Positions 2,988-31,757 of a DNA stretch of 64,000 nt are shown here, piece by piece (position 1 is the first letter of the stretch; each line of letters starts with the position of its first letter). The notes beneath the pieces are model-generated. The model saw only the letters and a program-made list of their open reading frames with translations, had not been told where the DNA came from and searched no databases. Made by a program: the position numbers and the translations under genes. The DNA comes from an uncultured Verrucomicrobiota bacterium. Its GTDB lineage: Bacteria > Verrucomicrobiota > Verrucomicrobiia > Limisphaerales > UBA9464. The stretch covers positions 62,001-126,000 of the forward strand of contig CAIVQB010000077.1 in NCBI GenBank assembly GCA_903907925.1, read 5' to 3'.

Positions 2988-4502
2988 TCACGTCGTCGGA
3001 GGCAAGCGCAGGGTCACATCAAGCGGGGTCCCCTCACCCAGCGCTTTCGATTCGGTGCCGCCACCCAACTTCAACAGCTTCTCGCCACCGGGCCGCACCC
3101 GGCTCTCAAAACTCCCGACCGCCTCGTTGTAGGATTTCACCGCCCGTTCGAGTCCGCCCCGGATATGAACGAAATGGCCGCTGAAGGTGACCACCCGTTC
3201 GTACAACTCGCGCGCCGCCGCCGCGATTTCACGGGCGTTCTGGGATTGCTCATACTGCTGCCAGCTCACAGAAACGCTGCGCAACAGGGCGATCAACGAC
3301 GCCGGCGTGGTCAGCAGAATCCGGCGCTCCGCCGCCCACATCAACAATTCGGAATCCCCCTCCAGCGCCGCGCTGAACAACGAGTCCGCCGGCAGGAACA
3401 GGACCACGTGATCCAACGCGTCGGGGAATTGACGCGGATAATCCCGGTCCGCCAGTGCCTTCACTGTGTCGCGCAGTTTCCGCGCGTGTTGCGCCAGCGC
3501 CTCCGCCCGACGCCCGGCATCGGCCTCGCCCAGCGCACTCAGGAAGTCGAGGTCCGGCACCTTGGAATCGACGATGATCATCCGCTCGCCCGGCAGCCGG
3601 ACGATCATGTCCGGCTTGCTCTCCCCTTCCCGAACCTGCTCGACGAAATCGCAATGCGCGCTGAGTCCGGCCGCCTCCACCACCCGGCGGAGGGTCTCTT
3701 CACCCCAACGTCCACGGGCCTGGTTGCTCGACAGCACCATCCGCAGCCGCTGGGTCTCGCTGGACAGGCTCTGGCTCTGGGTTGCGAGTTCCTGCAACTG
3801 CTGCTTCACCTTGCCCAGCGTGTCGACCTGTTGAGCTTCGGCCTGCTGCAAACGCTGTTGGTAGGCCTTCAACTGTTCCTCCAGCGGACGCACCAGCGCC
3901 GCCACACCTTCTTGGCGTTGGGTCAGATCGCCAGCGGCGGCCGTCTGGAACTTGGCGAAGGTCTCATTCGCCAGCCGTAGAAAATCAGGAGTGTTGGCGC
4001 TCAACGCCTCGGCCGCGAGTGCCTTGAACTGATCCCTCAAAGTAAGAAGCGCCCGATCGCTGGTGACCCGTAGTTCGACCAATGCGGCATCCTGCTTCTC
4101 GCGGAGTGCACGCTCGTTGTCGGCGTGAAACCGGCGCTGTTCCTCGAGCAGAACCCGGCCCATCTCCACCTCCTGGCGCGCCGCCGCCAATGCCGTTTCC
4201 GCCAATCCCACCCGCTCCCGCATCGCGGCCAAATCCTGACCGGAAGCCGCGGCCTCCGCGGTTCGGGCCAGCGACAGCGACTCAGCCGCCGCCCGACTCG
4301 CCTCCGCCCCGGCCGCCCGTGCCGCTGCCGCCGAGGCTTCCTCACGAGCCTTGGCGAGATCCGCATCGCGGGTCGCCAACTGGTTTCTCAGCTCGAATTC
4401 AACGCCGGCATCGGCCGGTGTCCGGCGTTGCCCGCGCAACACCCATCCCACCAGGAGCCCCAAAACCAGGCCGACCACTAACGCAACAATTCTCTCAACC
4501 AT
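2988..4502 (-). CDS. rmuC: DNA recombination protein RmuC
   Basis: The 504-residue protein has the RmuC layout: an N-terminal membrane anchor (VERIVALVVGLVLGLLVGWVL, residues 2-22), a long Ala/Glu/Arg-rich coiled coil to about residue 190, then the nuclease-like RmuC domain with GRWGEETLRRVVEAAGL, CDFVEQ, KPDMIVRLPG and IIVDSKVPDLDF. The C-terminal ILLTTPASLIALLRSV is also characteristic. RmuC limits recombination at inverted repeats in Escherichia coli; the mechanism is not settled. The start is set at ATG 4502 just before the anchor; the track start at 4529 adds nine residues. It stands alone on the minus strand between two repeat-bearing gaps. Confidence 0.93.
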   Translation of the reverse strand: MVERIVALVVGLVLGLLVGWVLRGQRRTPADAGVEFELRNQLATRDADLAKAREEASAAAARAAGAEASRAAAESLSLARTAEAAASGQDLAAMRERVGLAETALAAARQEVEMGRVLLEEQRRFHADNERALREKQDAALVELRVTSDRALLTLRDQFKALAAEALSANTPDFLRLANETFAKFQTAAAGDLTQRQEGVAALVRPLEEQLKAYQQRLQQAEAQQVDTLGKVKQQLQELATQSQSLSSETQRLRMVLSSNQARGRWGEETLRRVVEAAGLSAHCDFVEQVREGESKPDMIVRLPGERMIIVDSKVPDLDFLSALGEADAGRRAEALAQHARKLRDTVKALADRDYPRQFPDALDHVVLFLPADSLFSAALEGDSELLMWAAERRILLTTPASLIALLRSVSVSWQQYEQSQNAREIAAAARELYERVVTFSGHFVHIRGGLERAVKSYNEAVGSFESRVRPGGEKLLKLGGGTESKALGEGTPLDVTLRLPPTT

Positions 4503-4584
4503 TGGCACCCCGCGAGAGACGCCACACACGGCCCCTCACGCAACGACAAAGTGCAGCGCAGCTCCTTGCACCTGAAGAGAGGAC

Positions 4585-4940
4585 ACCGATTGCACGAATT
4601 GACACGGATTTAGAAAGAATGAAATCGAATGGATCGGCACTTCGGGAATCGTTGAGAATTCGTGAATCAATATCCCGATTTCCGCCGCTTCCGGTGGAGC
4701 AAATCTCGCGACAAGCCGAATCGACGTGACTCCCCGAACCGCGTAAACGCGGAACTCCGGTCGCAGTAGGGCGAACCTCCCGGTGAGCCGAGTGAACGGA
4801 CGAATTTAACCCCGCCCGGCGGCGTTCCATGCTCTGCCACGCACCCGGCTCGGCGGGAGTCTCGACCCTGTCGATCGCATTCGCCTCTTCAACTCTTCAC
4901 CATTTCAACCCTTCATCCCGTCCTCCCAATCCGTGTCTCT
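4585..4940 (+). repeat. Composite intergenic repeat, copy 1 (modules A-B-C-A')
   Basis: This gap of about 470 bases between the AAA ATPase and rmuC holds no gene. It contains module A (GCACGAATTGACACGGATTT, with a diverged GAATTCGTGAA nearby), module B (4728-4875, from GACTCCCCGAACCGCG to CTCGACCCTG), module C (4881-4920, CTCTTCAACTCTTCACC repeating a TTCAACY unit) and A' (CCCAATCCGTGTC). Within B, CTCCCGGTGAGCCG (4777-4790) and CGGCTCGGCGGGAG (4846-4859) are imperfect inverted arms. The same modules recur in the same relative order at 41262-41555 and, reversed, at 27500-27815. Confidence 0.8.
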
Positions 4941-4970
4941 CCGCTACGAAATCCCCGTTCAAAGGATTGG

Positions 4971-5726
4971 TCACAGGAGCGGACCTTCGTCGGTCGGTTC
5001 ACCGAGGAGTTGTTCCAAGCGCCTGGGGAAGTTGTTCAGGAAATCACGGGTCACCGTGTAGTGTTCCGTGTCCTCAAATCGAACCTCCGCGACTCCGGAA
5101 TCGCCAAACTGCAGGATCCTCGCCCGCGGATAGGCGAGGAGGATGGGCGAGTGGGTCGCGATGATGAATTGGGAACCTTCGAGTACCAGTTGGTGGATCG
5201 CCGCCAGTGCAGCGAGTTGACGGTTCGGCGACAAAGCCGCTTCCGGCTCGTCCATGAGGTACAATCCATCGCCCCTGAACTTGTGGGTCAAAAGGGTCAT
5301 GAACGCCTCGCCATGTGAACGGGCATGCAACGACCGATTGTCGTAGCCGCCGAGGTACCCGACTTGGTCCATGTAGGTTGCGACGTTGAAGAAACTTTCG
5401 GCGCGCAGAAAATAGCCGTCGGCAGGCTTCTTGAAACTTCGGGCGAGGCGCAACGATTGATGCAGTGAGGAGACCGATTCGACGGTCTTCAGTTGAACGT
5501 TTTTGGTTCCACCTTCCGGACTGTAGCCCAGCGCGACGGCGATGGCCTCAAGCACTGTTGATTTTCCGACCCCGTTTTCGCCGACGAAGAAAGTCACGTC
5601 CGGATGAAACCTGAGGGTCCCCATTCCGCGAATGGAAGGGATGTTGAACGGGTAGACGTTCGGGTCACCCGCTGCATCCGAACGGACAGAAACCGCCTGC
5701 AGGTAGGGCTTGGCGTCGAGAGTCAT
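4971..5726 (-). CDS. AAA-type predicted ATPase (SMC/RecF-like ABC ATPase fold)
   Basis: The 251-residue soluble ATPase has Walker A GENGVGKST (residues 49-57), a signature-like ARSHGEAFM (135-143), Walker B GLYLMDEPEAALSP (154-167) and a switch region IIATHSPI (188-195). This is the compact COG3910-type AAA family, in which no coiled coil separates the two halves. Such proteins are widely found alone and their role is not established; some relatives act in phage defence, but no partner nuclease or methylase is adjacent. The gene is bracketed by nearly identical non-coding segments (4881-4937 and 5726-5773), the right one beginning inside its start codon. This suggests it may have moved or been duplicated with its flanks. 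Confidence 0.85.
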   Translation of the reverse strand: MTLDAKPYLQAVSVRSDAAGDPNVYPFNIPSIRGMGTLRFHPDVTFFVGENGVGKSTVLEAIAVALGYSPEGGTKNVQLKTVESVSSLHQSLRLARSFKKPADGYFLRAESFFNVATYMDQVGYLGGYDNRSLHARSHGEAFMTLLTHKFRGDGLYLMDEPEAALSPNRQLAALAAIHQLVLEGSQFIIATHSPILLAYPRARILQFGDSGVAEVRFEDTEHYTVTRDFLNNFPRRLEQLLGEPTDEGPLL

Positions 5727-5800
5727 CGCCTCTTCAACTCATTTCCCTTCATCCCGTCCTCCCAATCCGTGTCAATTGGTGCAATCCGTGTCTCCCACCG
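5726..5800 (+). repeat. Modules C and A', direct repeat of the segment at 4881-4937
   Basis: TCGCCTCTTCAACTC, then CCTTCATCCCGTCCTCCC and AATCCGTGTC, is shared with 4881-4937 apart from an internal length difference in the TTCAAC part. It continues into a second AATCCGTGTC, giving a pair of A motifs. The AAA ATPase gene lies exactly between the two copies. Confidence 0.75.
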
Positions 5801-5804
5801 GGCA

Positions 5805-7028
5805 TCAAGGCTTGAACACAATCCGACTCACCACGTCGTTGGTGGTGGCCTGAAACCAGCCACCGTATTCGACGAGGTACAAAGCACCGTCCGGTCCGCG
5901 ACGAAGCGAGATGGGGCCGCCGGGCAGGCCCTGGGCAAACGGTTCAGTGGCCCCGGGCTGCAGGGTCTTCGCGTCGACCGGCGCGAACCGGACTGTCTTG
6001 CGGTTGTAGTCGGAATAAAACAGGCCGCCCCGGTAGCGTTCCGGAAACGCGGCACCCGACTTCGGGGCGCGATAGATCAGGGCTCCGGTGCAGGAACCGC
6101 CACCGTTCCGCTTGTACATCAGCCAGGGTGCCGTGAATCCGTCGACGTGATTGGTCCGCGTCAACGTCGCGAGGCCATCTGCGAAAACCCGCGGCCATCC
6201 GAAGTTCGCGCCGGGCGTGATGCGGTTAATCTCCTCGTGATCGTCCAGTTCGTCGCCGCCGTTTTCTGCGAGAAGAAGAAGCCCGGACACCGAATCCCAG
6301 TTCAGCAACCACGGCTGACGATGCCCGCGGGTGAACACTTCGCCACGCGCTCCGGGCGTCTTGGTGTGGGGATTCCCGGGCGGAACCGTTCCGTCCAGAT
6401 TCAAGCGGAGCACCTTGCCCCGCAGATCGCCGATCGACTGCGCCTGATTCGCCGGATCATCACAGTATTCCTTGAGCTTCCAGATGACGTTGTTGTCCCC
6501 AGTCGTCACGTAGAGCAGGCGCTCTTTCGGGTGCATCAGGAGACCGCCACCGACGTGTTGCGCGCCTTCATCCCCGTCGAATTCAATCAGCGTCTTGTCA
6601 CTGCCGGCCACGAGCATCGCGGCGGCACCGGTCCCACGGATCTCCCAGCGACTGACCCGGCTCCGATACTTTCCCGCCGGACGTTCGAGGGCGTGCGAGA
6701 AGAGAAACAGCGTGTTGTTTTTGGGGAAGTCCGGATGAAACGCGATGCCATGAAGACCGCGGTCGCCGTTGGTATCGGTCGGAATGGTCCCGACCAGATG
6801 CCGTTGCAGCGTGGTCAGGTCCACGCGCCAGATCTGTCCGGCGCGGCCGGTGATCCAAACGGCGTTGTCGGGGGCGAACGCGAGGTCCATCGGCTCGCGA
6901 ACCTCCGGGCCGGCCACCGCCTCGCGGACAAATCCCACCGGCAGTTTCACCTCCGCCCGCGCCGAAACGATGGAACCAGCGACGACGACGAAAAGGATCC
7001 GCAGCGCGACGGGCAGACTGGATTTCAC
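5805..7028 (-). CDS. Exported PQQ-dependent sugar dehydrogenase-like beta-propeller
   Basis: The 407-residue product has a signal peptide (KSSLPVALRILFVVVAGSIVSARA) when read from the GTG at 7028. The longer track ORF adds 56 residues without export logic. The mature chain is a soluble glucose dehydrogenase-type propeller (GSDH, COG2133): EPMDLAFAPDNAVWITGRAGQIWRVDL, GDRGLHGIAFHPDF, GGGLLMHPKERLLYVTTGDNN, ENGGDELDDHEEINRITPGANFGWP and a final GPDGALYLVEY. The His of LHGIAFHP and the DDHEEIN loop correspond to the catalytic/calcium region of the family. It probably oxidises an aldose in the periplasm using PQQ. Several relatives lack proven activity, so the substrate is uncertain. Confidence 0.87.
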   Translation of the reverse strand: MKSSLPVALRILFVVVAGSIVSARAEVKLPVGFVREAVAGPEVREPMDLAFAPDNAVWITGRAGQIWRVDLTTLQRHLVGTIPTDTNGDRGLHGIAFHPDFPKNNTLFLFSHALERPAGKYRSRVSRWEIRGTGAAAMLVAGSDKTLIEFDGDEGAQHVGGGLLMHPKERLLYVTTGDNNVIWKLKEYCDDPANQAQSIGDLRGKVLRLNLDGTVPPGNPHTKTPGARGEVFTRGHRQPWLLNWDSVSGLLLLAENGGDELDDHEEINRITPGANFGWPRVFADGLATLTRTNHVDGFTAPWLMYKRNGGGSCTGALIYRAPKSGAAFPERYRGGLFYSDYNRKTVRFAPVDAKTLQPGATEPFAQGLPGGPISLRRGPDGALYLVEYGGWFQATTNDVVSRIVFKP

Positions 7029-7276
7029 GCGGTGGCAAATCGAAGGCGGGATGAACGGCACACGCCAAGGGTGGTCGGACCAGCGTCGAAGGCAAGTTTG
7101 GACCCCGCCGATCCTCCGATGTGCCGCCACAAAAAGATGGCGACACCAAAGCGCCATGAACGCGGTCGCGAGGCAATGCGGCCCTGCGTTCAGCACCTTT
7201 TTAAAACCTACTCGACCGACCGGGTTTGGAAAACGAGCCGGTCAAAACCAACACCGGCCCAAAACCGCAAACGCGG

Positions 7277-27500: not shown

Positions 27501-27815
27501 AGGGTTGAAGGGTTGAAGAGAGGAAGACGATCCACGGGTAGGGTCGAGGCTCCCGCCGAGCCGAGCGTGTGGTACTACGCGGGACGCAATTCGGCGTGGT
27601 AGAATCCGTCCGTTCACTCGGCTCACCAGGAGGTTCGCCCTACCGGGCGGGAGTTCCGCATTCACGCGGCTCGGGGAGCCATGAATGGCGACACCGATTT
27701 CACGGATGAACACGGATTCCTGAAACACCGATCGAATTCCGTTCATTCTGTCCATCCCGTTTCCTTCTCATTCTGTCTCATTCCGTGCGAATTCGTGAAA
27801 TCCGTGTCTCGCCTC
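27500..27815 (-). repeat. Composite intergenic repeat, copy 2 (modules C-B-A, reversed)
   Basis: This gene-less gap of 343 bases after argD holds, in order, module C reversed (GAAGGGTTGAAGGGTTGAAG, starting in the argD stop), module B reversed (27536-27680) and module A (GATTTCACGGATGAACACGG, later GCGAATTCGTGAAATCCGTG). B is bounded by imperfect inverted arms at 27538-27563 and 27619-27643. Read on the minus strand the order is A-B-C, as at 4585-4940 and 41262-41555. Confidence 0.82.
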
Positions 27816-31644: not shown

Positions 31645-31757
31645 TGGAATATCGACACGAATTCACGAATGAACACGGATTGTGATGCGAAAAAAACGCC
31701 CCATTCAGGTTCATTCCTCCGAAATTCGTGAAAATCGGTGAAATCCGTGTCGAACAA
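31645..31757 (+). repeat. Module A repeat before the Tat-exported dehydrogenase
   Basis: CACGAATTCACGAATGAACA followed by CGGATTGTG, and later CGAAATTCGTGAAAATCGG and TGAAATCCGTGTC, are paired A motifs facing each other. They occupy the whole gap between the PQQ-propeller gene and the dehydrogenase. Confidence 0.65.

Follow-up and report, generated by a model that had tools for sequence, protein, structure and literature searches.

Our analysis indicates that the direct repeats flanking a solitary AAA ATPase gene in this uncultured Verrucomicrobiota bacterium are probably the scar of an insertion, in which a foreign gene entered the chromosome and a resident stretch came to be duplicated on both sides of it (R - gene - R). 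The gene is extra relative to congeneric genomes, has a foreign phylogeny and a lower GC content than its neighbours, and lies between near-identical copies that are private to the locus. The same layout recurs around toxin-antitoxin (TA) modules in sister genomes, which is why we read the repeats as a gene-insertion scar. There is little explanation so far for how single genes, and TA modules especially, enter chromosomes when they have neither a transposase nor an integrase of their own. If such a scar recurs, recognised by a long direct duplication, a small cargo and empty sites in sister genomes, it would be a countable and datable trace of these events. It would also help in judging whether cargo genes can be lost again via recombination.

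A private pair of direct repeats encloses one gene

The window is the whole 64,000-nt stretch that was analysed; G000 is the genome it comes from, and G004, G007, G008, G009 and G010 are genomes compared with it. The region around the ATPase gene contains the following features:

2988..4502, minus strand: rmuC-like gene (PF02646; Pfam RmuC E=1.4e-84), a conserved neighbour with orthologues in 6/7 congeners
4582..4674, minus strand: complete, partly decayed palindromic element (by-eye alignment to the 22-copy family; long hairpin, z = -2.9)
4726..4868, no strand assigned: second intergenic repeat, GTAGGGCGAACCTCCCGGTGAGCC ... CACCCGGCTCGGCGGGAG, limits approximate (related pieces in L087 and L254)
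4881..4942, plus strand: left direct copy, CTTCAAC tract and truncated end of the palindromic element (alignment; private 24-mer)
4971..5726, minus strand: solitary AAA ATPase gene, COG3910-like, 251 aa, the putative acquired cargo (AAA_15/AAA_21 matches)
5726..5794, plus strand: right direct copy, CTTCAAC tract and full 29-nt arm, beginning at the ATPase start codon (alignment)
5805..7196, minus strand: glucose/sorbosone (PQQ) dehydrogenase-like gene (PF07995), a conserved neighbour

The gene order is thus sugar dehydrogenase, ATPase, RmuC, with all three on the minus strand. The original prediction placed direct repeats at 4881-4937 and 5726-5773, with exactly one gene between them and the right copy starting in its start codon, and all three points were borne out. 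Both segments have the same orientation (+) and are identical at 48/48 gap-free bases, including the blocks TCGCCTCTTCAACTC (15/15) and CCCTTCATCCCGTCCTCCCAATCCGTGTC (29/29); the shared segment has no mismatches, and all 9 nt of gaps fall within the CTTCA-type tract. The gapped alignment scores 81, whereas 2000 dinucleotide-like shuffles reached 43 at most. A single convincing ORF, the ATPase gene, lies between the copies, and base 5726 is the A of its minus-strand ATG. This ORF start agrees with the starts of homologues, indicating that the repeat joins the gene exactly at its natural start.

Each direct copy has two parts: on the left a CTTCAAC tract, which is dispersed in the genome (34 matches), and on the right the end of a palindromic element. 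The right copy extends to 5794 with the full 29-nt element arm AATCCGTGTCAATTGGTGCAATCCGTGTC; the left copy retains just the final 10-13 nt of that arm. The two copies are far closer to each other than to any other site in the genome, and the 24-mer CATCCCGTCCTCCCAATCCGTGTC occurs at two genome sites only, the direct copies themselves, even when 3 mismatches are allowed. This mutual identity, together with the private 24-mer, points to a local duplication or a gene conversion and not to two independent draws from a dispersed family.

The copies carry the end of a clade-specific palindromic element

The palindromic element has approximately 154 arm sites in the 4.6-Mb genome at no more than 3 mismatches. 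At the same threshold there are 50 arms in G010, 38 in G004, 18 in G009 and none in the other four congeners, and a reversed control pattern gave 0 matches. These counts indicate a clade-specific family of ERIC/MITE-like character, and its many dispersed copies have the long terminal inverted repeats expected of such elements. The 22 full copies that could be aligned are 89-124 nt long, with the arm AATCCGTGTNAATTCGTGAAATCCGTGTC and the consensus GACACGGATTTCACGAATTCACACGGATT - CCTGAAGAGCCGATCGGATTCGGTTCATTCTGT...CTC - AATCCGTGTGAATTCGTGAAATCCGTGTC, and their two arms are complementary at 25/29 positions on average. This repeat of the clade appears not to have been described before. Two further copies lie in the window:

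27690..27808, plus strand: well-preserved full palindromic element copy (family alignment)
31653..31751, no strand assigned: palindromic element copy with inverted arms approximately 100 nt apart

Element copies fold as long hairpins, and a structured RNA was considered on that basis and rejected. The arms within one copy match at 25.0/29 positions, compared with 24.96/29 between arms of different copies, which gives no hint of compensatory change. Without arm covariation, we think a DNA element that is mobile, or that spreads in some other way, more likely than a conserved RNA. The one copy tested against Rfam had no match above the gathering score, and the only Rfam matches within the window were a tRNA and a c-di-AMP riboswitch (RF00379, 20203-20367, 52.7 bits). 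Inspection of element copies by eye gave no consistent target-site duplication. In the part of the genome that was read, the wider-spaced arm pairs checked enclose ordinary genes or other repeats, and no transposase with these ends was recognised.

The intergenic region to the left of the ATPase gene is a mosaic of the decayed element at 4582-4674 (its arm is listed as G000:C77:66582-66610), the second repeat at approximately 4726-4868, and then the tract with its half-element. The order of second repeat, CTTCAAC tract and half-element is found again at G000:C133 (L083). Short near-repeats of several kinds, (CTTCAACT)n, aagtaagcaagtgagcgagtaggcgag and attttcatttttcattttgcc, stand side by side between genes at L042 (G000:C92, about 159640-159702) and L037, and a palindromic element at L085:52-452 (G000:C39) is interrupted by an unrelated insert with the ends GAGCCCGTCTGAAAATGAGG / CCTCATTTTCAGGCAGGCTC, apparently another small inverted-repeat element.

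Given such abundance of arms and tracts between genes, two independent dispersed-repeat copies could by chance flank a gene, and the flanks would then have nothing to do with its arrival. A third full element copy lies 200 nt away (4582-4674), and at L095 an ordinary gene pair sits between two full copies (5896-6976). We consider this explanation unlikely, because family members usually diverge from each other much more than the 4881/5726 pair, whose 48 aligned bases are identical and unique in the genome. In addition, non-coding direct pairs with a spacing of approximately 1 kb are uncommon, and the remaining ones that score at least 60 surround TA genes, as described below.

The ATPase gene is apparently acquired from unrelated bacteria

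The ATPase has a RecF/SMC-like P-loop with the Walker A motif GENGVGKST and the Walker B motif YLMDEPEAALS. Its closest homologues, at 72-77% identity, are in Hydrogenedentota, Rhodocyclales and Burkholderiales, and a maximum-likelihood tree places it among these homologues. A split with 99/96 support separates it from the homologues in G012 and G048, which belong to its own family, and from those in other Verrucomicrobiota; the homologues within the family cluster with records labelled 'Verrucomicrobia subdivision 3'. The GC content of the gene is 58%, compared with 64-65% in neighbouring genes. Together, these observations indicate that the gene was apparently acquired from unrelated bacteria. 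The G012 and G048 homologues lie in other surroundings, without the palindromic element.

The duplication does not appear to be a property of the ATPase family as such. Flanking direct repeats scoring at least 60 were found at 1/78 homologues and 1/137 controls, leaving that idea unsupported. A Roseateles depolymerans homologue (L110) has the perfect 25-nt direct repeat ACCGGAGTCATGACCAAGTGACCAG on either side. An origin as an integron cassette, suggested by a GTTAGGC core beside the homologue L112, was also rejected: across 19 homologue loci there was no pattern, L112 being the only one with a GTTRRRY core near the ORF, and no attC core was seen by eye at the ORF flanks in the window.

Congeneric genomes lack the gene

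The original prediction suggested looking in relatives for absence of the gene with one repeat copy left, and the first part was borne out in the genomes compared. All seven congeneric genomes (7/7) lack an ATPase homologue beyond weak P-loop matches. The opposite pattern, in which the gene is conserved without the repeats in all relatives, is therefore not what is seen. The dehydrogenase and rmuC genes are 1302 nt apart in G000, compared with 347 nt in G010 and approximately 15 nt in G004, so both relatives have an empty site without the cargo. The absence of the gene from congeners, with the flanking genes adjacent in G010 and G004, supports an insertion of the ATPase gene at this locus.

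The second part, a single remaining copy, is only suggestive. In G010, a single diverged tract of the GTTGAAG type immediately follows the dehydrogenase stop codon and scores 51 against the left copy, but such tracts are dispersed, and 11/3016 G010 segments score at least 51. In G004, the repeat is absent altogether from the empty site. These two sites count against the scar reading, and a single resident copy before insertion is thus unproven for the ATPase locus.

The same layout recurs around toxin-antitoxin modules

Approximately 1.3 Mb of sampled stretches, 0.82 Mb from G000 and 0.52 Mb from G010, were scanned for direct repeats around islands of approximately 1 kb. The scan mostly yielded paralogous coding repeats. 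The non-coding pairs that scored at least 60 were those around the window ATPase, around a VapBC module in G000 (L218; PIN toxin TIGR00028 E=4e-30), and around a gene pair in G010 (L190), one member of which weakly resembles a Phd-like antitoxin (below the TIGR01552 cut-off, E=0.003). A different palindromic family, TTGGAGGGCTCG...CGAGCCCCATCTACGTCC...GGGCGCGGGTGGAAGCGAGCCCTCCA, up to approximately 290 nt long, is found at L218:9604-10756 and approximately 20 more places in G000, and it is this family that flanks the L218 VapBC. The counterpart empty site of L218 in G010 lacks the repeat altogether, which counts against the scar reading, as does the fact that ATPase homologues elsewhere are not generally repeat-flanked.

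A third TA-like module with this layout, a VapBC in G010 (L179/L195) made up of a PIN toxin (PF01850) and a PrlF/MazE-like antitoxin, lies between repeats of 92% identity that also end in an arm of the palindromic element. Its empty sites in G004 (L229) and G009 (L231) have one tract, one arm and the same flanking genes. The single remaining repeat copy is thus much clearer for this module than for the ATPase locus.

L179:1927-2835 (G010:C1): VapBC-type TA module flanked by direct repeats (73 nt each, 836 nt apart)
L258:1040-2004 (G008): TA module with a duplicate of the 5' end of an ECF-like sigma-factor gene (105 nt, or 35 codons, counted from its ATG)
L274:318-1325 (G008): VapBC at the 3' end of a ubiD-like gene, the last approximately 137 nt of which are duplicated

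PIN-toxin loci were then considered as a class. From 30 loci of the genus (seven genomes), 28 were kept after omitting the tandem TA paralogues L257 and L266, and their flanks were aligned with stiff gap costs, as lenient ones produced extended, gap-rich matches in coding sequence. Compact flanking direct repeats were found at 6/28 PIN loci and in 8/1207 background windows (Fisher p = 2e-7). Since two genomes supplied the background and seven the PIN loci, we take this enrichment of flanking duplications as indicative. Two of the six repeat-flanked loci, both in G008 (L258 and L274), duplicate coding sequence, which shows that the duplication is not tied to one repeat family.

At L274, the second ubiD 3' end beyond the TA module is approximately 78% identical to the first. 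Both copies, differing at approximately 22% of positions, resemble real ubiD 3' ends, as if one were donor-derived. This would fit a homologous import, by single or double crossover with another strain, of a gene already beside the same repeat, making the repeat a vehicle and not a scar. The 29 nt of perfect homology at the ATPase locus, which is near the RecA minimum, would be available for such an exchange. We regard this as improbable: it presupposes that the donor already had this locus-specific repeat, which moves the question only one step back, and the repeats are different at every locus.

Discussion

Our data favour an insertion scar, and the following sequence of events would account for it. 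A foreign solitary AAA ATPase gene would have entered the intergenic region between the sugar-dehydrogenase gene and rmuC, leaving a resident stretch of approximately 57-70 nt, comprising the CTTCAAC tract and one end of the ERIC/MITE-like element, as direct copies on either side. The duplication probably arose together with the insertion, and candidate processes include single-crossover integration, templated insertion and staggered-break repair. Ku was not found in G000, G010, G008 or G004 and is present only in G007; its absence from G000 and G010 argues against classical end joining, and a Ku-dependent route was rejected. The GAAGAGG of the tract, just upstream of the ATG, may act as a ribosome-binding site for the new gene.

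Perfect repeats of 29 nt separated by under 1 kb are able to recombine or to undergo slippage, making a later loss of the ATPase gene through its flanks plausible. Such an exchange between the copies, whether by RecA or by slippage, could remove the gene and leave a single copy behind, and the excision or duplication suggested in the original prediction would follow from this known behaviour. It is tempting to speculate, as a tentative generalisation that we hold to be possible but doubtful, that small selfish or defence genes of this clade, such as TA modules and the solitary ATPase, enter the chromosome independently of sequence, duplicating approximately 60-140 bp of any target, whether intergenic repeat or coding sequence, and leave R-cargo-R scars from which the cargo may later be lost.

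The layout can be compared with several known systems. As in transposon target-site duplications, direct copies stand at both ends of the extra piece, and some empty sites have a single copy. Those duplications are usually 2-14 nt; the copies described here are 57-140 nt, and the cargo has neither a transposase nor inverted ends. The palindromic family resembles ERIC/MITE-type elements in its length of approximately 100 nt, its long imperfect terminal inverted repeats, its intergenic location without an ORF, and its clade-specific amplification to approximately 100 or more copies. It differs in sequence, which is unrelated as far as could be judged, in having no identified target-site duplication or transposase, and in that it often occurs as half-copies or in mosaics with other repeats.

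The ATPase shares its ABC/RecF-like AAA_15/AAA_21 core with the OLD, PtuA, GajA and AriA ATPases. Unlike these, it is only 251 aa long and has no adjacent partner nuclease or effector gene, its neighbours being RmuC and the sugar dehydrogenase. An anti-phage system of the PtuA, GajA, AriA or OLD type is not supported, as the scores against anti-phage models are 30-68 bits, far below curated cut-offs (500 for PtuA), and no partner gene accompanies the ATPase.

Finally, the arrangement recalls units flanked by miniature elements, such as the integrons or resistance genes found between MITEs in Acinetobacter (PMC10969869), in that copies of a small palindromic element enclose a gene. That a transposase acting on the ends of two such elements moved the ATPase unit is very improbable: the element has MITE-like anatomy, and inverted arms at 4582-4610 and 5764-5792, 93% complementary, enclose the gene, but both direct copies are truncated half-elements where a composite transposon has two complete ones, no transposase with these ends came to light in the part of the genome that was read, and the G012 and G048 homologues are in surroundings without the element. 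The 4582-4674 copy is complete by itself, although its second arm has decayed; the enclosing inverted pair therefore probably arose by chance and was dropped as the ends of one composite. In contrast to the Acinetobacter units, the flanking copies here are truncated and in direct orientation, and quite different repeats, including coding sequence, are found in the same layout.
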